Source: Phycisphaerales bacterium (GTDB taxonomy: Bacteria; Planctomycetota; Phycisphaerae; Phycisphaerales; UBA5793). Taken from it: a DNA stretch of 64,000 nt. Below, piece after piece: positions 652 to 64,000 of the stretch. The translations under genes were made by a program, and so were the position numbers. Under the pieces are notes generated by a model. The model was not told the DNA's origin, searched no databases, and worked only from the letters and a program-made list of their open reading frames with translations. How positions within the stretch are numbered: the first letter of the stretch is position 1; each line of letters starts with the position of its first letter. The stretch covers positions 1 through 64,000 of the forward strand of contig JADZAS010000011.1 in the NCBI GenBank assembly GCA_020852515.1, in the 5' to 3' direction.

Positions 652-759
652 TCACTCGATGCGCAACACGTTGCTCGTGGAGCAGGTCTGCGCATCGATC
701 AGCTGGACGTAGCCGCCGCACGCGCTGGCGTTCAACTCGCCGGCGACGGTTGCGCCATC
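652..759 (-). pseudogene. Remnant of a secreted-protein C-terminal domain
   Basis: About 35 codons ending at the TGA at 652-654 read as a clean C-terminus with ACGGYVQLID and TCSTSNVLRIE. The same ending closes the FG-GAP protein at 46194-47633 (ACGGFLQLI...CTTSNV) and the SBBP protein at 63086-64000 (ACGSFLQLID...TCGTSNVARIE). Upstream of codon 1 the frame runs antisense-free into the end of the FapA-like gene, so the rest of the original protein is gone. I read it as a deletion remnant abutting, and overlapping by two bases, the FapA-like stop codon. Confidence 0.6.
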
Positions 760-22750: not shown

Positions 22751-23380
22751 TCACGCCTGACGACGACGGCGGCTGGCAGCGGCGATGCCGCCGAGTCCGA
22801 GCAGCGCCACAGCGCCGGGAGCGGGAATCTCGCAGAAGCCCGCGCCGACGAGGGCGATCGAGTAATCGCCGTCGGTGCTGCCGGAGCTGCTCCACGAGTT
22901 GAGCGGGTCGCCAGCGCCGGGGCCATCCGGAGCGCGCTCGACGTTGAACGGGCTGTTGGCCCAGATCAGGCCGGAGATCGACGACGGATCGGCATTGTAC
23001 TGGCTGATGGCCAGGTAGTAGATGCCCGGCGACGTAATGAACGCACCGGTGATCGTCGACTGCAGCGTGCCGCCGCTGGCCGCATCGTCATTGTGGGTCA
23101 CGCCGTAGCCGTTCGCATCGAAGAGGAACAGCTGCGTGTCGATGCTCGTACCGCCCACGGTGCTCGCACTGAACGAGCGGATGTCGAGGATGCGGATGCA
23201 GTAGATGTCCACGTCGTTGGGGTCATGATGACCGCGAATCGCGTCGAGCGATCCGAGGCCGACGGTGTGCTGGGCAGTCGCGATGGACTGGCCGGCATCA
23301 CCCTGCTCGGCCCACACGTCGCCGAACGCCGCTCCAGACAGAGCGAGCGCCGCGGCTCCTGCAAGTAAGGCAATCTTCAT
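22751..23380 (-). CDS. PEP-CTERM-type secreted protein
   Basis: 209 residues. Signal peptide about 1-20 (ALALSGAAFGD). A middle domain resembles the DVUA0089/pre-peptidase C-terminal type: DVDIYCIRILD, DTQLFLFDANGYGV, GIYYLAISQY. The C-terminus is PAPGAVALLGLGGIAAASRRRR: Pro-containing motif, hydrophobic segment and Arg cluster, the sorting signal used by exosortase systems, with PAP instead of PEP. GGAGGAGAAGAAA precedes ATG 23380. An intrinsic terminator follows the stop. A sortase gene (EpsH/XrtA-type) is not seen in the window. Confidence 0.8.
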   Translation of the reverse strand: MKIALLAGAAALALSGAAFGDVWAEQGDAGQSIATAQHTVGLGSLDAIRGHHDPNDVDIYCIRILDIRSFSASTVGGTSIDTQLFLFDANGYGVTHNDDAASGGTLQSTITGAFITSPGIYYLAISQYNADPSSISGLIWANSPFNVERAPDGPGAGDPLNSWSSSGSTDGDYSIALVGAGFCEIPAPGAVALLGLGGIAAASRRRRQA

Positions 23381-33532: not shown

Positions 33533-36500
33533 ATGTCTGCAACGCCTGCCGCCGCCCGCATCCTGCCGGATCGCGGTGCCGTACTGATTCGTTCTCTGCT
33601 GCTGGCCGTGCTGATGCTGGGCCTGCTGGGCGTCCGAGGGGCGCTGGCTCAGGACAGCCGCTATGAGGCCCTCAAGCAGCAGGCTGAGCAGTTCTACGCC
33701 GAGAAGTCCTACAGCCGAGCCCACGAACTTTACGAGCAGGCACAGAAGGTTGATGTGCCCGCCGCGGAGCAGCGCTGGGTGCGCTTTCGCCTTGCTGACA
33801 CGCTGTGGCGCGCGGCGCCGGACGACGTGGCCGACGACGCGGTCAAAACCGCGCGCAAACAACTGACGGCACTGGTCGATGAAATCGATCGGATGGAGGA
33901 TCGCGACCTCGTCTGGGCCGCGGCGAACGAATCGCTGGGCGACTCGTGGCTGCAGGGCGCCCGCCGCGCCAACGCCCGCGAGGCCTGGCCGTTTTATGCG
34001 CAGGCGCTCCAGTGGTGGGGCTCGAGCAGCGACATCGACGCGGCGCGCGACCGCTACATCTCCATGGTCTGGCGGGCGCTTGATGCCGAGGGCGGCGACT
34101 GGAGCTGGCGCGGCCGCTCCCCGGTCGTCCCGCTCGACGTGCTGCGCAACGTGCTTGAGATCGCGCAGAATGACTCCGACCGCACTCGCGCGCATTTTGA
34201 GATCGCGATGAAAATGCGCTACGTGACCGGCCGCGACCCTCGCCCGATCCAGCAGGTGACCGAGCATTTCGAAGCTGCGCTCGAGACCGATGCCCGCGAC
34301 TCACGCTACGTGGACGCGTTGATGGCCTACGCGGAATGGTGCACGCGATACGGCCAGATCGAAGTGCTCGAGAGCGGCCAATGGACCTGGAAGCCCGACT
34401 ACGTTCGCGCCGCCGAACTCTACAAGCGCCTGCTCGACGAGTTCAAGGCCGAGGAGATCGATCGCGACGAGGTAGTGCGGCGTTACAACGAAATCGTCCT
34501 GCCTGCGCTCGACGTGTACGTGAGCCATGCGTTCCTGCCGAACTCCGAGATTGCCTTCGACGCGCAGTGGCGCAACGTGAAGCAGATCGACTTCATCCTG
34601 TATCGCGTCAACCTGCGCGAGCGGACGGCGCTGACCGGCGCTATGAAGTCTGGTGAGCAGGACAACCGGCGCCGCTACTACGGCAGCGCGGTTGACGGGT
34701 GGATCCGCCACGTGGATCTGAACGGCGCTGAAGTCGCACGAAGGTGGTCAAAGCAGACCGGCGACACCGGCCGTCACGAGCCGATGTCTGATCAGATTCG
34801 ACTCGAAGAGCCACTTCCGGCCGGCGCGTACATTCTCGTGGCGCAGGCGGGGGCTGATCTTCGCGTGGTCGATCTTGTGCTGGTGAGCGACCTGGCGGTG
34901 GTCTCCAAGCGCCGGGGCAACGACGTGCTGCTGTATGCCTGCGATGCACTGACCGGCGCCCCGGCCCCGGACGTGCAGTTTCGCGCGTGGGACCTCGCCG
35001 CGCCGGACGAAAAGTGGACGGGCAACAGTTACACCGCTGCGGCCGATTCGCACGGCATCGCCCATCTGCAGGCCAAGCCCGCGACCGGCTCTTCGGAGAA
35101 TGTGAGTCTGCTCATTCTCGCCGGCGACGGCGCGCGGCAGACGTTTCTCACGTCCTACGAGGGCTACTGGTGGGACCGCAGCGACGAGAGCGTGCAGTGG
35201 CGCATCTACGCGCACAGCGATCGGCCGGCCTACCGCCCCGGCGACACGGCCAACTACCGCTTCGTGGCGCGCACGTGGAGCCCGAACGGCTGGACCACTC
35301 CCGCGGAACGGACGCTGCACTATCGCATCGTCGATCCGCGCGACACGGCGGTCTTCGAAGGCGAGACTGCGCTGAGCGAGTTCGGAAGCGCGTTCGCATC
35401 GCTGCAACTCCAGTCCGACTGGCCGCTGGGCGAATACACGATTCGCTTCAGCACGCTCGACGCGGCCGGGGATGAAAGCCAGGTGGCGTCCGCGACGCTG
35501 TTTCGTGTCGAGGAATACAAACTGCCCGAGTTCATTGTGACCGTCAAGCCGCTCGAAGACGACGAAGGCCAGCCGCACCTGTTTCGCATGGGCGACGTGG
35601 TGACGGCCGACATCGTCGCCGAGTACTACTTCGGCGGGCCCGTGGCGAGCGCCGACGTCGAAGTCGTTGTCAAGCAGCGGCCGTTCTGGCAGACATACGA
35701 GCCGCCGCGCCCCTACCCGTGGCTCTACGAAGATGCGAACCGGTGGAACTCCTACGGCTGGTGGAGCGGTGAGACGATCAAGACCGAAACGCTCAAGACC
35801 GACTCGGAGGGCCGGGCTCGCATCACCTTTGAGACGCCCTTCGACGCGGACCAGGACTACGAGTACACGATAGAAGCGCGCGTGACCGACCTCTCGCGGC
35901 GCGAGATCACCGGAAGCGGCAGCGTGCGCGTGACGCGGCAGAGTTACTTCGTTTATCCGGAAGTGGCGCACAAGATTCACCGGCCCGGCGACAAGATCGA
36001 GACCAGCATCAAGGCGCTCGACCCCAACGGATCTCCCGTGGCCGTGGAAGGCACGGTGACGGTGATGCGCCAGTGGTGGGATGAGGTGTGGGTCGATCCC
36101 GCCGGCCGCGAAGTCCTGCTCGACGGCGTCGAGCGATTGCGCGAGCAGTACGGAGTCTTTCCGCCTCCGCCGCGCCCCGAGGAGCACCACCGGTGGCAGC
36201 CGATCTTCCGCGGCTATCGCTCCGAGAAAGTGACTTCGGAGAAGGTGACGACGGACGAAGACGGCGAGGCGACGTTTACCTTCACCGCGCAGCGCGAGGG
36301 CTACTACATCATCGAGTGGGCCAGCCCGGACCCGCCGCTCGTGCCCGTCACCGCGCAGACCGCGGCGTGGGTGACGACGCAGCAGACCGCCAGCCTCGGC
36401 TACCACAACGACGGCGTCGAACTCATCGTGGACAAGGACACCTTTGCGCTGGGCGCGACGGCTCCGGTCATGATCTCCACGTCGTCGAGCAACCGCTACG

Positions 36501-39500
36501 TGCTGTTCACGATCGAAGGCGAGGAGTTGTACGACTGGCAACTCGTGCACGTGGCCGGCAACGTGAAACTGCTCAACATCGAGGTGCGCGAAGCGTACAT
36601 CCCCAATGTGTTCCTCGCCGCGGCGATGGTGAGCGGCGCGGCGATGGCCGAGTCAAGCCAGGAGATCATCATCCCGCCGGTGGAGCAATTCCTCAACGTC
36701 GCCGTCAAGGCGGATCAGGAGATGTACGAACCCGGCGCCGAGGGCACGCTCCAGATCACGACGACAGATCAGCAGGGCCGGCCCGTTGCCGCCGAGGTCG
36801 CGGTGTCGGTGTTTGATGAATCGGTGCTGTACATCCAGAGCGCGTACGCCGGCGACCCGCGCGCGTTCTTTTACGACCGCAAGCAGCGCAACGCCGTCAC
36901 GACCGACGGCAGCCTGGAAGAACTGCCGCTGATTCGCCTTGTCAAAACCGAGTCGGGCCGGTATGAGGATGCGCGGTTCGCGGCAGAAAAGAAGGAAGGC
37001 GCCCGGAGCAACGCCGCCGTCGGATTCGAGGGCGGAGGCGGCGGTTCAACGGGCAACTTCTTCCGCGATGACGACGGAGGAGCAACGTCCTTTGAGGGAG
37101 CCGCCGCGTACCGGATGGCCAGCCCGGCGTCTAAGGCCGCGGGCAGTCCCCCGCCGCCGCCGCCCGCCGGATCGCCCGAGCAGGGCCAGCCGCCGGCCGA
37201 CATTGTCGTCCGCACTGACTTCCGCGCCACGGCGTTCTGGGACGCCCGCGTGATCACTGATGACAGCGGCACGGCCACCGTCACCGTCCCCTACCCGCAA
37301 ACCCTCACGCGCTGGAAGGCCGAGGCGCGCGCCAACACGACGGGCGCGAGGTTCGGCATGGGGGAGACCACGGCGCGCACCAACAAGCCCATCACCGTGC
37401 GCATCCAGGGACCGCGCTTCATTACCGTCGGCGATGAGTTCGTCATCTCCTACATCGTTCGCAACAACACGGACGAGCGCATCTCGCAATTGCCCTTTGT
37501 TGACATGGAGGGCCTGATCTATCGCGGCCGGCGCGGCGGAGACGGCAACTACCACGATCGGCTCGCGCCAGGCGCGGGGCGCGTCATCGACGCAGGCGGC
37601 GAGACACGATTCGATCTCAAGTTCATTGCCGATAAGAGCGGCACAGCGGCAGTCAGCGTCTCGACGAAGATCGAGGACACGGATATCTCCGATGCCGTGC
37701 GCGCCACGTTCCCGGTGCACGATCACGGCATCGACAAGTTCGTCGCCGTCTCGGGCAAGGCGCGAGGCGATCAGGCGATCGTCACGCTCGATCTGCCCGA
37801 GGCCCGGCGCGTGGGCACGACGAGCATGAGCGTGCAGGTGACGCCGAGCATGGCCGTGACGATGCTCGACGCCCTGCCGTACCTGCTCGAATATCCCTAC
37901 GGCTGCGTCGAGCAGACCATGAGCCGCTTCCTGCCGGCGGTGATCGTAAACCGCACGCTGGCGGATCTCGGACTCGATGCCGAGGAGGTGGCGAAGCGCA
38001 CCTTCGGCGGCATTGAGATGGTTGACGGCAAACCTGCGCAGCCGCGCGACGACGCCAAGGGACTCGACCAACTCGATGAAATCGTCGCCGCCGGCCTGAG
38101 CCGGCTTGACGACATGCAGCACGACGACGGCGGCTGGGGCTGGTGGAAAGGCGGCGAGAGCGATCGCTACATGACCGCATACGTCGTGTGGGGACTGGGC
38201 CTGGCGCGGCAGGCGGAACTCGATGTGCCCGGCGACATGATCACGCCCGGCGCCGACTATCTCGTGCAGCGGCTCAACACGGCGCGCGACGTGCCGGAAC
38301 TCCAGGCGTGGATGCTGCACGCCCTGGCCGCGAGCAAGGCGACGAGCTTGCCGCTCGAATCGCACGGCGCCGTCGCGACCGCGTTCGACAACCTCTGGCA
38401 GAAGCGCGATCAACTCAGCGCCACCGGCCGCGCGCTGCTGGCCCTGAGCGCGCATCACCTCGGCAAAGCCGAGCAGGCGCAGACGCTGGCGCGCAATCTC
38501 GAAAACGGCGTGATCCGCGATGATCGCCCCGACCAGTCGATCCTCGTCAAGAACGCCGACGGCTCGCCGGCCACCGTCCTGGGCACGGCGCACTGGGGGC
38601 GAGAAAGCGGCTATCGCTACTGGTGGGACGGCGGCATCGAATCGACCACGCTGTGCCTCCGCGCACTGCTGGCCATCGCGCCCCAGAGCGAACTCATCGA
38701 ACCGGCGACGAACTGGCTCATTCGCAACCGGCGCGGTGCGCAGTGGACCAACACACGCGACACCGCCATGGCCGTGCTCACGCTGTGTGACTACCTCCGC
38801 GCCAGCGGCGAACTCGAAGCCACCGGCCGCTATGAAGTGATGGTCAACGGCCGACTCGTGGGCAAGTCAGAGGTAACGCGCGAGAGCATTCTCAGCGCCC
38901 CGGCTGTGTTTGCGGTGCCTGAGGCGAGCATCCAGTCCGGCGCCAACACGATCCGCATTCGCCGCCTCGAAGGCGACACGGCGCTCTACTTCGCGGCTCA
39001 GGCGGAGTTCTTCTCAACCGAGGAGCCCGTCACGCCGGCGGGCAACGAGATCTTCGTGCGCCGCGATTACTACCGCCTCGTGCCGGCGCCCACGCTGCTC
39101 AGCGGCGTTGAGTATGTGCGCGTGCCGCTGAAGGATGAAGACCACCTCAACAGCGGCGACCGCGTCGAGGTCGTGCTCACCATCGAAGCCAAGAACGACT
39201 ACGAGTATCTCGTGCTTGAGGACCTGAAGCCCGCGGGCTTTGAAGCGACGCAGATCCGCAGCGGCGAATCGATGTACATTCATCAGATCAAGAACGCCGC
39301 CGCGCAGCGGCTCTTTGCCCAGGGTGAGGCGACCGATCAGGACGGCCGGCGCGAATTCGATCCGTGGTCGATCACCGGCGACGCGAGCAATCTCACCGGC
39401 CGCTCGCGCTGGGTGCACCAGGAACTGCGCGACCGCAAGGTGGTTTTCTTCGTCGATCAACTGGGCCAGGGGTACTGGCAGGTGCGCTATGAAGCGCGTG

Positions 39501-39622
39501 CCGAAGTGCCCGGCCGCTTCCACGCCATGCCGCTGCTGGGCCACGCGATGTATGTGCCGGAGATCCGCGCCAACAGCAGCGAGATTCGCGTGAACGTGGA
39601 GGAACGTCCCGGGACGCCCTAG
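33533..39622 (+). CDS. Alpha-2-macroglobulin family protein
   Basis: 2029 residues, the length of a bacterial A2M protease trap. Signal peptide about 1-38 (LLGVRGALAQ). Residues about 40-330 are TPR-like helices, then macroglobulin (MG) beta domains. A glycine/proline-rich stretch at about 1160-1225 is a plausible bait region. The thioester element is GCVEQ with Cys1458 (bacterial A2Ms: CLEQ; animal: CGEQ), inside YPYGCVEQTMSRFLP. The thioester helical domain follows, then a receptor-binding-like C-terminal domain. The bacterial family usually sits beside a penicillin-binding protein 1C gene; none is seen here. Envelope location is inferred. Its stop codon shares CTAG with the convergent dockerin gene. 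Confidence 0.92.
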   Translation: MSATPAAARILPDRGAVLIRSLLLAVLMLGLLGVRGALAQDSRYEALKQQAEQFYAEKSYSRAHELYEQAQKVDVPAAEQRWVRFRLADTLWRAAPDDVADDAVKTARKQLTALVDEIDRMEDRDLVWAAANESLGDSWLQGARRANAREAWPFYAQALQWWGSSSDIDAARDRYISMVWRALDAEGGDWSWRGRSPVVPLDVLRNVLEIAQNDSDRTRAHFEIAMKMRYVTGRDPRPIQQVTEHFEAALETDARDSRYVDALMAYAEWCTRYGQIEVLESGQWTWKPDYVRAAELYKRLLDEFKAEEIDRDEVVRRYNEIVLPALDVYVSHAFLPNSEIAFDAQWRNVKQIDFILYRVNLRERTALTGAMKSGEQDNRRRYYGSAVDGWIRHVDLNGAEVARRWSKQTGDTGRHEPMSDQIRLEEPLPAGAYILVAQAGADLRVVDLVLVSDLAVVSKRRGNDVLLYACDALTGAPAPDVQFRAWDLAAPDEKWTGNSYTAAADSHGIAHLQAKPATGSSENVSLLILAGDGARQTFLTSYEGYWWDRSDESVQWRIYAHSDRPAYRPGDTANYRFVARTWSPNGWTTPAERTLHYRIVDPRDTAVFEGETALSEFGSAFASLQLQSDWPLGEYTIRFSTLDAAGDESQVASATLFRVEEYKLPEFIVTVKPLEDDEGQPHLFRMGDVVTADIVAEYYFGGPVASADVEVVVKQRPFWQTYEPPRPYPWLYEDANRWNSYGWWSGETIKTETLKTDSEGRARITFETPFDADQDYEYTIEARVTDLSRREITGSGSVRVTRQSYFVYPEVAHKIHRPGDKIETSIKALDPNGSPVAVEGTVTVMRQWWDEVWVDPAGREVLLDGVERLREQYGVFPPPPRPEEHHRWQPIFRGYRSEKVTSEKVTTDEDGEATFTFTAQREGYYIIEWASPDPPLVPVTAQTAAWVTTQQTASLGYHNDGVELIVDKDTFALGATAPVMISTSSSNRYVLFTIEGEELYDWQLVHVAGNVKLLNIEVREAYIPNVFLAAAMVSGAAMAESSQEIIIPPVEQFLNVAVKADQEMYEPGAEGTLQITTTDQQGRPVAAEVAVSVFDESVLYIQSAYAGDPRAFFYDRKQRNAVTTDGSLEELPLIRLVKTESGRYEDARFAAEKKEGARSNAAVGFEGGGGGSTGNFFRDDDGGATSFEGAAAYRMASPASKAAGSPPPPPPAGSPEQGQPPADIVVRTDFRATAFWDARVITDDSGTATVTVPYPQTLTRWKAEARANTTGARFGMGETTARTNKPITVRIQGPRFITVGDEFVISYIVRNNTDERISQLPFVDMEGLIYRGRRGGDGNYHDRLAPGAGRVIDAGGETRFDLKFIADKSGTAAVSVSTKIEDTDISDAVRATFPVHDHGIDKFVAVSGKARGDQAIVTLDLPEARRVGTTSMSVQVTPSMAVTMLDALPYLLEYPYGCVEQTMSRFLPAVIVNRTLADLGLDAEEVAKRTFGGIEMVDGKPAQPRDDAKGLDQLDEIVAAGLSRLDDMQHDDGGWGWWKGGESDRYMTAYVVWGLGLARQAELDVPGDMITPGADYLVQRLNTARDVPELQAWMLHALAASKATSLPLESHGAVATAFDNLWQKRDQLSATGRALLALSAHHLGKAEQAQTLARNLENGVIRDDRPDQSILVKNADGSPATVLGTAHWGRESGYRYWWDGGIESTTLCLRALLAIAPQSELIEPATNWLIRNRRGAQWTNTRDTAMAVLTLCDYLRASGELEATGRYEVMVNGRLVGKSEVTRESILSAPAVFAVPEASIQSGANTIRIRRLEGDTALYFAAQAEFFSTEEPVTPAGNEIFVRRDYYRLVPAPTLLSGVEYVRVPLKDEDHLNSGDRVEVVLTIEAKNDYEYLVLEDLKPAGFEATQIRSGESMYIHQIKNAAAQRLFAQGEATDQDGRREFDPWSITGDASNLTGRSRWVHQELRDRKVVFFVDQLGQGYWQVRYEARAEVPGRFHAMPLLGHAMYVPEIRANSSEIRVNVEERPGTP

Positions 39623-44301: not shown

Positions 44302-45066
44302 TCAGCGAACGGGGCGGTAATCCCAGCGCCAGTCGGCGTCTTCGAGCGGCGAATCCGTCGCGCGAACCGAGCCATCGAGCGCCGCGATCTGCACGGTTCC
44401 GCCGTGACGCAGCGAGGGGAACCACTCCTGCCCGTCGCCATACGGCCGGCCGGGCTCGCTGGGCGCGGCCGAATAGTGCGGCGTGACGCCGCGCTCGGAC
44501 GCGACGGCGCCGTCGATGTCCCACAGGAGCGGGATCTCGTCGGGCCGCGCGACGGGCGAGTTAAGGATGCGGTCGCTCAACGGCACCTGGCGGGCGATCC
44601 AGAAGCCGCCCACCAACTGCTCGGGCGAGTCCAGTTGCAGGTTGAAGGCATAGGAGACGTTTCGGGCCGGCTGCACGGCGCCGGACCGGCACGGCGTATC
44701 CGAGCGGAGGATGACCTCGCCACGCACTTCGTCGCATCCCATGACGCCGAGGTCGGCGACGCTGCCGGTGAAGATGGATCCGGGTCGCCGCCAGAATTCG
44801 TCAATCCCGTACTGCGATTCCTGGAATGTCTCGAGTCGGAACGTTGAGCCGGCATCGTCGCCGCGATTGCCGTGCAACGAGGCGTCCGCGAAGATCGCAA
44901 AATCGAACGACACGCTGCGCAGGTTGACCTGACAGGCGTAGGCGCGCGATCGCGAGCGCACGGACTGCACGCCCGGCACCAGCAGGGAGAGGAGGATTGC
45001 GATGAGCGACATTGTCACCAGCAGCTCAACCAGCGTGAAGGCGCGGCTGGAGCGGCAGTGCGTCAT
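44302..45066 (-). CDS. Pseudopilin-like protein (prepilin N-terminal motif)
   Basis: 254 residues. A short leader and then SRA|FTLVELLVTMSLIAILLSLLVPG, a type IV prepilin N-terminal hydrophobic helix. The residue before the cleavage point is Ala, where Gly is normal. The C-terminus carries RHGGTVQIAALDGSV, the HxxxxxxxxDG-type signature of DUF1559 proteins. In planctomycetes such proteins are abundant and may be secreted or form fibres via a type II/IV system. The ATG at 45066 lacks a good Shine-Dalgarno site; a GTG nine codons upstream is an alternative. Confidence 0.65.
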   Translation of the reverse strand: MTHCRSSRAFTLVELLVTMSLIAILLSLLVPGVQSVRSRSRAYACQVNLRSVSFDFAIFADASLHGNRGDDAGSTFRLETFQESQYGIDEFWRRPGSIFTGSVADLGVMGCDEVRGEVILRSDTPCRSGAVQPARNVSYAFNLQLDSPEQLVGGFWIARQVPLSDRILNSPVARPDEIPLLWDIDGAVASERGVTPHYSAAPSEPGRPYGDGQEWFPSLRHGGTVQIAALDGSVRATDSPLEDADWRWDYRPVR

Positions 45067-46193: not shown

Positions 46194-47633
46194 ATGACAC
46201 TTCGACGACGATTCCTTTTGCTCGCCCCCAGCCTGTTCCTGGGCGCCAGCGCTTTCGGGCAAGTGAGTTTCCAGGCGCCGGTTCCTTATGCCGTTGGCCC
46301 ACGGCCTTCTGACTCGGCGATAGCCAATTTCGACAATGCGGGCGGCCTCGACGTGGCCGTCACCGTCGACACGCCCGACCGCGTGATCATCCTGCTCAAC
46401 AGCGGGAACGGCTCGCTCAACCAGAGCGCCTCGATCCAACTGCCCAGCGGCAGCGGCGCCGGTTCGATCGTCGCGGCCGACTTCGACGGCGACACCGACG
46501 CGGACCTGGCGGTCGCTATGCAGAACACCGGGCGCGTGACGATCCTCTTTAATAACGCCGGGTCGTTCACCGTGGGCGGCTCGTTTACTGTCGGGGCGAA
46601 TCCGCGCGGCTTGAGTGCGGCCGACCTGAATGGAGACACCATTGCCGATCTCGCCGTGGCCAATCGCGACAGCAACAGCGCCAGCGTGCTGATCAACAAC
46701 GGCAGTGGTTCATTCGCCGTGACGACGCTGGCGGCCGGCGCCGAGCCGCGCGGCGCGGCGCTGGGCGACTTCGACGGTGACGGCGACAACGACCTGGCCG
46801 TCTCCAATCACGATGATCGCAGCATCTCGCTGTTTGCCAACAACGGCAGCGGCGCCTTCAGCCCGGCCGGCACGCTGTCCGTCGGCGGCCAGCGCCGCCC
46901 TGAGGGCATCGTCGCCGCCGATCTCAATGCGAGCGGGCGCGATGATCTCGTCGCCGCGACCAACGGCGACTTCGTCGAGAGCGCCACGGTGTTCCTGGCC
47001 ACCGGCGGCATGGCCTTCAGCGGCCCCGTGCACTACCCCACCGGCGGCCTGGACACCTCCAACGTCAACGTCGCCGACATCGACTGCAGCGGATCACTCG
47101 ATCTGGTCACGACCCACCAGAGTTCGGGCAACTTCGGCGTGCTGCTCAACAATGGCTCGGGCGCCTTCGGCGCTGCATCGCTGTTCGCCAGCGGCGTGAG
47201 TCCCCAATCGGCCGAAGCCGGCGACCTCGACGGCAACGGTTCGCCGGACCTCGTCGTGAGCAACCGCGACAGCAACAACATCACCGTGCACCTGAATACG
47301 ACCTGCACGGGCGGGGGCTACACCCTGACCATCACCGGCACGTGCCCGGGCCAGGTAACCATCAGTTGGTCTGGCGCTACGCCCAATGCCCAGCAGGCGC
47401 TGCTGTTCGCGACTTCGCAGGGCAATTTCGTCATTCCCACCGGCCGGCCTTGCGCGGGCACGCAACTGGGCCTGAGCGCGAATCAACTGCGCGTGGTCAC
47501 GCCTCCGGGGACGTTCTCGACGGGCAACGGCAGCGGCTCGATTTCAGGCAATGCCGGCGCGCAGGCGTGCGGCGGGTTCCTGCAACTCATTCAGGGCGGC
47601 TCGTGCACCACGAGCAACGTAGCCGGCCTGTGA
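46194..47633 (+). CDS. FG-GAP/VCBS repeat secreted protein
   Basis: 479 residues. Signal peptide about 1-22 (SLFLGASAFGQ). About six FG-GAP-like calcium loops follow (DFDGDTDADLAVA, DLNGDTIADLAVA, DFDGDGDNDLAVS, DLNASGRDDLVAA, DIDCSGSLDLVTT, DLDGNGSPDLVVS), so the body is an integrin-like beta propeller. The last about 110 residues (TGTCPGQVTISWSGATPN... to CTTSNVAGL) form the C-terminal domain shared with the SBBP gene at 63086-64000 and the remnant at 652-759. AAGGAGAG precedes ATG 46194. Confidence 0.85.
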   Translation: MTLRRRFLLLAPSLFLGASAFGQVSFQAPVPYAVGPRPSDSAIANFDNAGGLDVAVTVDTPDRVIILLNSGNGSLNQSASIQLPSGSGAGSIVAADFDGDTDADLAVAMQNTGRVTILFNNAGSFTVGGSFTVGANPRGLSAADLNGDTIADLAVANRDSNSASVLINNGSGSFAVTTLAAGAEPRGAALGDFDGDGDNDLAVSNHDDRSISLFANNGSGAFSPAGTLSVGGQRRPEGIVAADLNASGRDDLVAATNGDFVESATVFLATGGMAFSGPVHYPTGGLDTSNVNVADIDCSGSLDLVTTHQSSGNFGVLLNNGSGAFGAASLFASGVSPQSAEAGDLDGNGSPDLVVSNRDSNNITVHLNTTCTGGGYTLTITGTCPGQVTISWSGATPNAQQALLFATSQGNFVIPTGRPCAGTQLGLSANQLRVVTPPGTFSTGNGSGSISGNAGAQACGGFLQLIQGGSCTTSNVAGL

Positions 47634-63085: not shown

Positions 63086-64000
63086 CTACTCGATGCGGGC
63101 CACGTTGCTCGTGCCGCAGGTGGTAAGGTCAATGAGTTGGAGGAACGAGCCGCACGCGGCGCCACCGACTGAGGAACTGAGAATCTTCGATCCATCTCCC
63201 TCGGAACGGCCGGTCCAGACTACTTGAATCTGATTGGCACAGAGCCCAAGCGACGTGCCGGGACAGGGCATCTGTTCCGGCACGACAAAGGCACCTTCGC
63301 ATCGGGCGAAGATCAGTGCCACCCGCGCGTCGGGTGTTGCTCCGTTCCACTCCACGCGAATAGGGCCACCGATTGGACAGGTCGCATTGACAGAAAGCGC
63401 GACACCGGTCCGATTACTTAACTTGACGAGCACCGCGTCTGTAAAACCGTGGAACGAGTTGCTGTGCCCTTCGAAATCCCCTGATTCGGTCGATCCAACT
63501 ATCAACGCATTGCCAAGCAAATCCAGCTCCACATCGCGACCCGAATCCACTTCACTACCCCCAAGGTAAGTCATCCATTGAATCTCACCGACCGCATCGA
63601 CCTGGAGTATGAACAGGTCGTTCACTCCGCCGTGGTGCTCGTTGTTCCTCCCCTCAAAGTCCGTCGATTGTGTCGTGCCCGCCACCAGCGCATTGCCGGC
63701 ACGATCAACTGCAACTCCAAACCCATCATCGTCACCGCTGCCGCCAAGGTAGGTCATCCACTGCAGTTGGCCGGCAGGGTCGACTTTGAATACGAAGCAC
63801 TCCCCCGAATCTCCGTGGCTCGAATTGTTCCGGCCTTCGAAGTCTATGGATTGCGAATACCCCGTCACAATTGCGTTGTCGGCCGGGTCGACAGCAATGT
63901 CTTTGCCACGGTCCCAGTCACTTCCTCCGTAGTATGTCATCCAGCGCACTTGACCGGTCGGGCTCACACTGGCAACAAAGGCGTCTCCTCCCCAAGTACC
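63086..64000 (-). CDS. SBBP beta-propeller secreted protein, 5' end outside the window
   Basis: At least 304 residues; the frame stays open to the window edge (AFVASVSPTGQVRW precedes the first GTG), so the N-terminus is missing. SBBP-type repeats of about 55 residues are seen: QVRWMTYYGGSDWDRGKDIAVD, QLQWMTYLGGSGDDDGFGVAVD, EIQWMTYLGGSEVDSGRDVELD, each with NALVAG and DFEGRNN-type parts. The C-terminal domain (NATCPIGGPIRVEWNGATPDA... TCGTSNVARIE) is the one shared with the FG-GAP protein at 46194-47633. Likely secreted; function unknown. Confidence 0.82.
   Translation of the reverse strand, partial: GTWGGDAFVASVSPTGQVRWMTYYGGSDWDRGKDIAVDPADNAIVTGYSQSIDFEGRNNSSHGDSGECFVFKVDPAGQLQWMTYLGGSGDDDGFGVAVDRAGNALVAGTTQSTDFEGRNNEHHGGVNDLFILQVDAVGEIQWMTYLGGSEVDSGRDVELDLLGNALIVGSTESGDFEGHSNSFHGFTDAVLVKLSNRTGVALSVNATCPIGGPIRVEWNGATPDARVALIFARCEGAFVVPEQMPCPGTSLGLCANQIQVVWTGRSEGDGSKILSSSVGGAACGSFLQLIDLTTCGTSNVARIE

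Follow-up and report, generated by a model that had tools for sequence, protein, structure and literature searches.

A recurrent C-terminal Ig-like domain as a candidate protein-sorting tag in a family of Phycisphaerales planctomycetes

Two propeller proteins with different bodies, encoded on a 64,000-nucleotide stretch of a Phycisphaerales bacterium genome (the whole stretch analyzed, hereafter the window), end in the same last domain, which raises the question of what this domain is and what it does at the end of otherwise unrelated proteins. The question reaches beyond this locus, as the transit of planctomycete proteins across the outer membrane and their retention at the surface are poorly known. 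The features of the window that bear on it are the following:

46194..47633 (+): FG-GAP propeller protein of 479 aa, with signal peptide, FG-GAP body and C-terminal domain (translation)
47319..47630 (+): C-terminal predicted Ig-like two-disulfide domain, copy 1, 104 aa (profile/genome search; AlphaFold pLDDT 90.3)
63086..64000 (-): SBBP/DUF7948 propeller protein, its 5' part outside the window, about 816 aa in the assembly (Pfam SBBP, 6.1e-27; locus L033)
63089..63403 (-): C-terminal domain, copy 2, 105 aa (49% identical to copy 1, E 3e-31)
655..756 (-): 34-residue remnant corresponding to the C-terminal third of the domain, without a gene of its own (sequence comparison)
22754..23380 (-): PEP-CTERM-tailed paralog of a domain-bearing protein encoded elsewhere in the genome (G000:C2:67754), its putative tag-swap partner (62% identity over 188 aa, E 2e-78)

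The shared domain and its predicted fold

The gene encoding the FG-GAP protein starts with an ATG at 46194 and stops at 47631-47633; the protein has a hydrophobic N-terminus and a body matching Pfam FG-GAP_3 (5.2e-43). The gene of the SBBP protein, on the minus strand, has its stop at 63086-63088 and is open past the window end. The two copies of the domain align over 104 aa with 49% identity (E = 3e-31), which confirms the common last domain already noticed in a preliminary description of this DNA. The third copy had been regarded there as a remnant, and this holds: the 34-residue tail at 655-756 begins where the upstream frame stops, at 758, has neither a start codon nor a signal peptide of its own, and is 52% identical over 31 aa to the domain copy of the SBBP protein. 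The window also encodes a bacterial alpha-2-macroglobulin of 2002 residues (33614-39622, plus strand; bMG10, MG2, A2M, bait region and TED) and, near the FG-GAP gene, a pseudopilin-like protein with an N-terminal methylation motif (44305-45066, minus strand).

The impression that the domain is not a named family was right. Searches of Pfam and NCBIfam with the whole FG-GAP and SBBP proteins recognized no family over it, and 117 isolated domain copies had no family match in the same databases, the stray matches of 1-3 of the 117 to unrelated families looking like chance. The domain profile found no match among PDB sequences, and no description of the domain was found in open-access papers. The invariant or near-invariant residues of the 117 copies are C13, P14, G15, G39, P44, C49, G51, G75, C88, Q93, C100, and S103. 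C13 and C88 are kept or lost jointly (phi 0.97 among 279 sequences lettered at all four cysteine columns, kinship uncorrected), and 28 remote sequences retain just C49 and C100. On the simplest reading, the cysteines pair as two predicted disulfides, C13-C88 and C49-C100, of which the latter would be the older. The preliminary description spoke of conserved paired cysteines, and four cysteines are near-invariant; the "terminal motif" proposed along with them is the last strand of the folded domain and no separate short signal.

The AlphaFold model of the domain is an Ig/FnIII-like beta-sandwich (mean pLDDT 90.3). Its top fold matches in the PDB, modestly significant (Foldseek 8.7e-3), are FnIII/Ig domains. 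After realignment, the Fn3 domain of Pel3/PelI comes first (Z 8.6, 2.4 Å over 81 residues), and unrelated sandwiches come next with Z 7-8; we take this match of a predicted model as a lead only.

Copies, protein bodies and distribution

The source assembly of the window comprises 39 contigs and 4.72 Mb. A single-sequence search located the domain at 123 places of this genome, and about 128 copies were obtained when these places had been fetched and the profile iterated. The copies lie in 128 separate open frames, so that two domains per protein are never seen, and the domain forms no internal repeats. In good matches it ends 3-9 residues before the stop codon (11-22 in a few weak, divergent ones), and none of 12,770 decoy frames, reversed and shuffled, matched the profile at E 10. 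A signal-peptide-like N-terminus was detected by a simple hydrophobicity rule in 110 of the 128 proteins. Taking the window's gene density as representative, we estimate that roughly 3% of the genes of the genome carry the tag (128 copies in 4.7 Mb).

Ninety-nine of the domain proteins have bodies, which were sorted into 46 clusters and include FG-GAP, SBBP/DUF7948, Kelch, subtilase, HAF, CHRD, DUF4394, and right-handed helix, as well as choice-of-anchor B (2.9e-104), choice-of-anchor J and R, and DVUA0089. We take choice-of-anchor B, J and R, DVUA0089, HAF, CHRD, the subtilases, and SBBP to be families known for alternative anchors.

Seventeen proteins of the genome consist of a signal peptide and the domain only, and are often encoded in tandem, by sets of two to three genes that lie from a few bases up to a few hundred apart. 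The same solitary class, tandem too, is found in the related genomes G001-G004. Members of the tandem sets at loci L034, L039, L057, L061, L069, and L109 have diverged to about 30-40% identity. We read these genes as a small family with an evolution of its own. Dedicated machinery was looked for beside them and rejected, the neighbors being unrelated, with no recurring gene. A common promoter or regulon was rejected as well: a search for a shared upstream regulatory motif of the domain genes found none, enrichment being confined to the ribosome-binding site and to words that code for the tails of upstream tandem copies.

The domain occurs in each of the six genomes of the window's family and in none of 55 genomes from the order's other families. 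At E 1e-10, its counts in the other five genomes of the family are at least 127, 78, 139, 111, and 50 among the best 150 candidates scored. A wide alignment (A1) was too diverse for a scan of contigs; the tight set used in its place (A2) found the domain in planctomycete MAGs, e.g., Phycisphaerales bacterium UBA5793. Contigs WYBR01..., titled Vicinamibacteraceae bacterium isolate PLA1, hold many planctomycete tags (L112, L117, L146, L157, L172, L174, L175, L177, L181), and the title of this record is thus probably wrong. Within a phylum-wide sample, 26 of 294 genomes had a match. Strong four-cysteine forms recur in a distant planctomycete family, f62, in which six genomes have from 7 to at least 16 matches apiece; weaker forms turn up sporadically in the phylum. 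The remote forms are likewise C-terminal, mostly 3-8 residues before the stop; an internal placement is seen in just two remote, low-scoring relatives (L210 and L289), both from genome G075. Of the two outcomes that the preliminary description had named as refuting its idea, hits in the middle of proteins and a match to a named family, neither was thus seen for the family proper. As the remote forms are spread through the phylum and are C-terminal too, the amplified tag looks like a specialized branch of a wider planctomycete C-terminal Ig-like domain.

Homologous bodies with exchanged C-termini

The PEP-CTERM/exosortase system (Haft 2006, PMC1569441) likewise has a C-terminal tag that occurs in many copies per genome, on a wide variety of signal-peptide proteins, and the two kinds of C-termini meet on homologous bodies. 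The body of one domain protein of the window's genome (L077, on G000:C16) was searched in 61 genomes. It ends in the domain in at least six genes of the window's family, from same-genus genomes, including most of the homologs there. In sister families, homologs with 57, 33, and 36% identity have PEP-CTERM-like tails instead (EIPGPAGLAILGLGLVARRNRRR, IPSPGAAALLGLGALAGARRRR, and IPEPATCFLFGLSTLLLRRPRNR, respectively), as have two distant same-genus paralogs. Bodies of the DVUA0089 family behave likewise, with the domain in the window's family and PEP-CTERM-like tails in several other families. The exchange is also seen within a single genome: the DVUA0089-like protein encoded at 22754-23380 (minus strand) shares 62% identity with the protein at C2:67754 over 188 residues, the similarity ending at the tag boundary, beyond which the former has the tail CEIPAPGAVALLGLGGIAAASRRRRQA and the latter the domain instead. 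Both tag systems thus coexist in this genome, where PF07589 detects nine PEP-CTERM tails. It is mainly this swapping of tags on homologous bodies that leads us to call the domain a sorting tag. It also supports, by sequence comparison, the initial suggestion that the domain serves in anchoring at the surface or in secretion, as PEP-CTERM or type IX CTDs do.

Copy numbers alone do not prove a replacement of PEP-CTERM. PF07589 counts are 0-9 in the domain-bearing family (f1) versus 34-123 in most genomes of families f5 and f6, but families f2 and f3 are also low and lack the domain, and a simple trade-off was therefore rejected. Every one of the six genomes of the window's family has exosortase, which is missing from four of the six domain-bearing genomes of f62 (G259, G270, G331, and G132, 87-90% complete). 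The tails differ as well. The Pro-Glu-Pro motif is absent from the consensus of the 117 copies; the best 17-aa hydropathy of the domain tails has a median of 0.84, with 0 of 116 at 1.6 or more, and at least two K/R occur among the last eight residues in three of 116 copies, whereas seven PEP-CTERM-like tails used for comparison have hydropathies of 1.36-2.04 and four basic residues each. Without a helix and basic tail, and with several of its host genomes lacking exosortase, the domain would work in the manner of PEP-CTERM or a type IX CTD but appears to belong to neither. It is a genuine C-terminal domain, so far undescribed and limited to certain lineages, and occupies the anchor or sorting slot; the absence of PEP-CTERM or T9SS from a genome need not mean that a C-terminal sorting system is missing.

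Candidate role and comparison with known systems

A sorting role is well supported by these sequence comparisons, and we consider it likely that the domain is a C-terminal protein-sorting tag. The proteins bearing it would leave the cytoplasm via Sec, the tag would fold and oxidize in the periplasm, forming its predicted disulfides, and an outer-membrane export or retention machine would then recognize the folded tag and bring the protein to the surface or the extracellular matrix, on the model of the T9SS CTD as an outer-membrane export signal (PMC4804311). In the window's lineage, the domain may thus do the job of PEP-CTERM/exosortase in sister lineages, with both coexisting in one cell, and it would predict much of the surface proteome for the whole family. 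A secretin (type II-like) translocon is our first guess for the machine, because such systems move folded proteins and secretins are present in every domain-bearing genome tested. Secretins were found in 36 of 36 distinct genomes, domain-less ones included; being equally common without the domain, they argue neither for nor against a type II route. The check proposed early on, for a peptidase or transporter gene co-occurring with the domain, gave no specific partner, exosortase being dispensable, secretins ubiquitous, and the neighbors of the solitary genes unrelated.

An unusual ABC-secretin fusion is encoded in the window's genome by one 1570-residue frame (G000:C19:2881-7593, plus strand; L234:2881-7593), with matches to ABC_membrane (6.8e-35), ABC_tran (1.7e-32), and a secretin domain (2.3e-42). 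A tag-bearing gene is convergent with it, a tag gene adjoins a secretin frame in genome G004 (C68), and several other genomes of the order have comparable long secretin frames.

The 17 proteins made of a signal peptide and the domain speak against a pure sorting label, which does not explain them. They suggest that the domain has an additional function of its own, e.g., in self-assembly or surface-layer docking. A more specific scheme, which we offer tentatively, is that of an undescribed planctomycete outer-membrane sorting and display system, in which a folded two-disulfide tag would have arisen from the phylum's generic one-disulfide C-terminal Ig-like domain and, in one family or more, been amplified to over 100 cargos, sharing cargo families with PEP-CTERM/exosortase and using the solitary proteins as structural or docking subunits. 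Matrix assembly would put these proteins at the center: the domain would bind or polymerize, with itself or with exopolysaccharide, the solitary copies would build an extracellular layer, and the tagged proteins would co-assemble with them through the domain. The often tandem arrangement of the 17 genes, with tandem sets in G001-G004 too, fits such a layer, as do the oxidized Ig-like domains that adhesins commonly have. Yet, an adhesive module need not be strictly C-terminal, single-copy, and swapped with PEP-CTERM, and the internal repeats expected of an adhesive Ig domain do not occur in this genome, which makes us regard this explanation as rather unlikely. That the domain has no sorting role, and is a stability cap or spacer spread among secreted proteins by recombination, would suit its wider planctomycete relatives, which resemble a generic C-terminal Ig-like domain and are twice internal; it appears very unlikely, because the domain and PEP-CTERM tails replace each other precisely, at one and the same boundary of the body, and because the domain is present on families known for alternative anchors. 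The natural pairs with the same body and different tags permit direct tests of the role of each tag.

Among known systems, the CTD of the T9SS (Por_Secre_tail) is an Ig-like beta-sandwich serving as an outer-membrane export signal (PMC4804311). Like it, the domain is a (predicted) Ig-like sandwich that forms the very C-terminus of proteins exported by Sec, whose bodies are unrelated; unlike it, the domain has two predicted disulfides and a planctomycete host. A true type IX system, in which the domain would be a divergent T9SS CTD handled by a SprA/PorU-like machine, would account for the C-terminal sandwich, the Sec signal peptides, and the many diverse cargos (PMC4804311), but seems very unlikely, as the T9SS CTD models of Pfam and NCBIfam were matched by none of the 117 domain members at E 0.1 and SprA was matched in 0 of 21 genomes, in a search that had no positive control. 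T9SS CTD structures are absent among the fold matches listed, which carries no weight against T9SS.

In type II secretion, Fn3 loops help the recognition and recruitment of Pel3 (PMC7949064). The Pel3/PelI Fn3 domain is the best fold match of our model; it differs in being the N-terminal domain of one enzyme family, with 11-16% identity and a Z-score that a common sandwich arrangement can reach. The GlyGly-CTERM/rhombosortase system (PMC3237569) falls, as the domain does, within the wide class of signals for processing or sorting at the C-terminus; the domain differs from GlyGly-CTERM by having neither a transmembrane segment nor a basic end. Unlike PEP-CTERM, the domain is folded, of about 105 residues and with four cysteines, and like PEP-CTERM, it is a multi-copy tag on diverse signal-peptide proteins that takes the same slot on homologous bodies.
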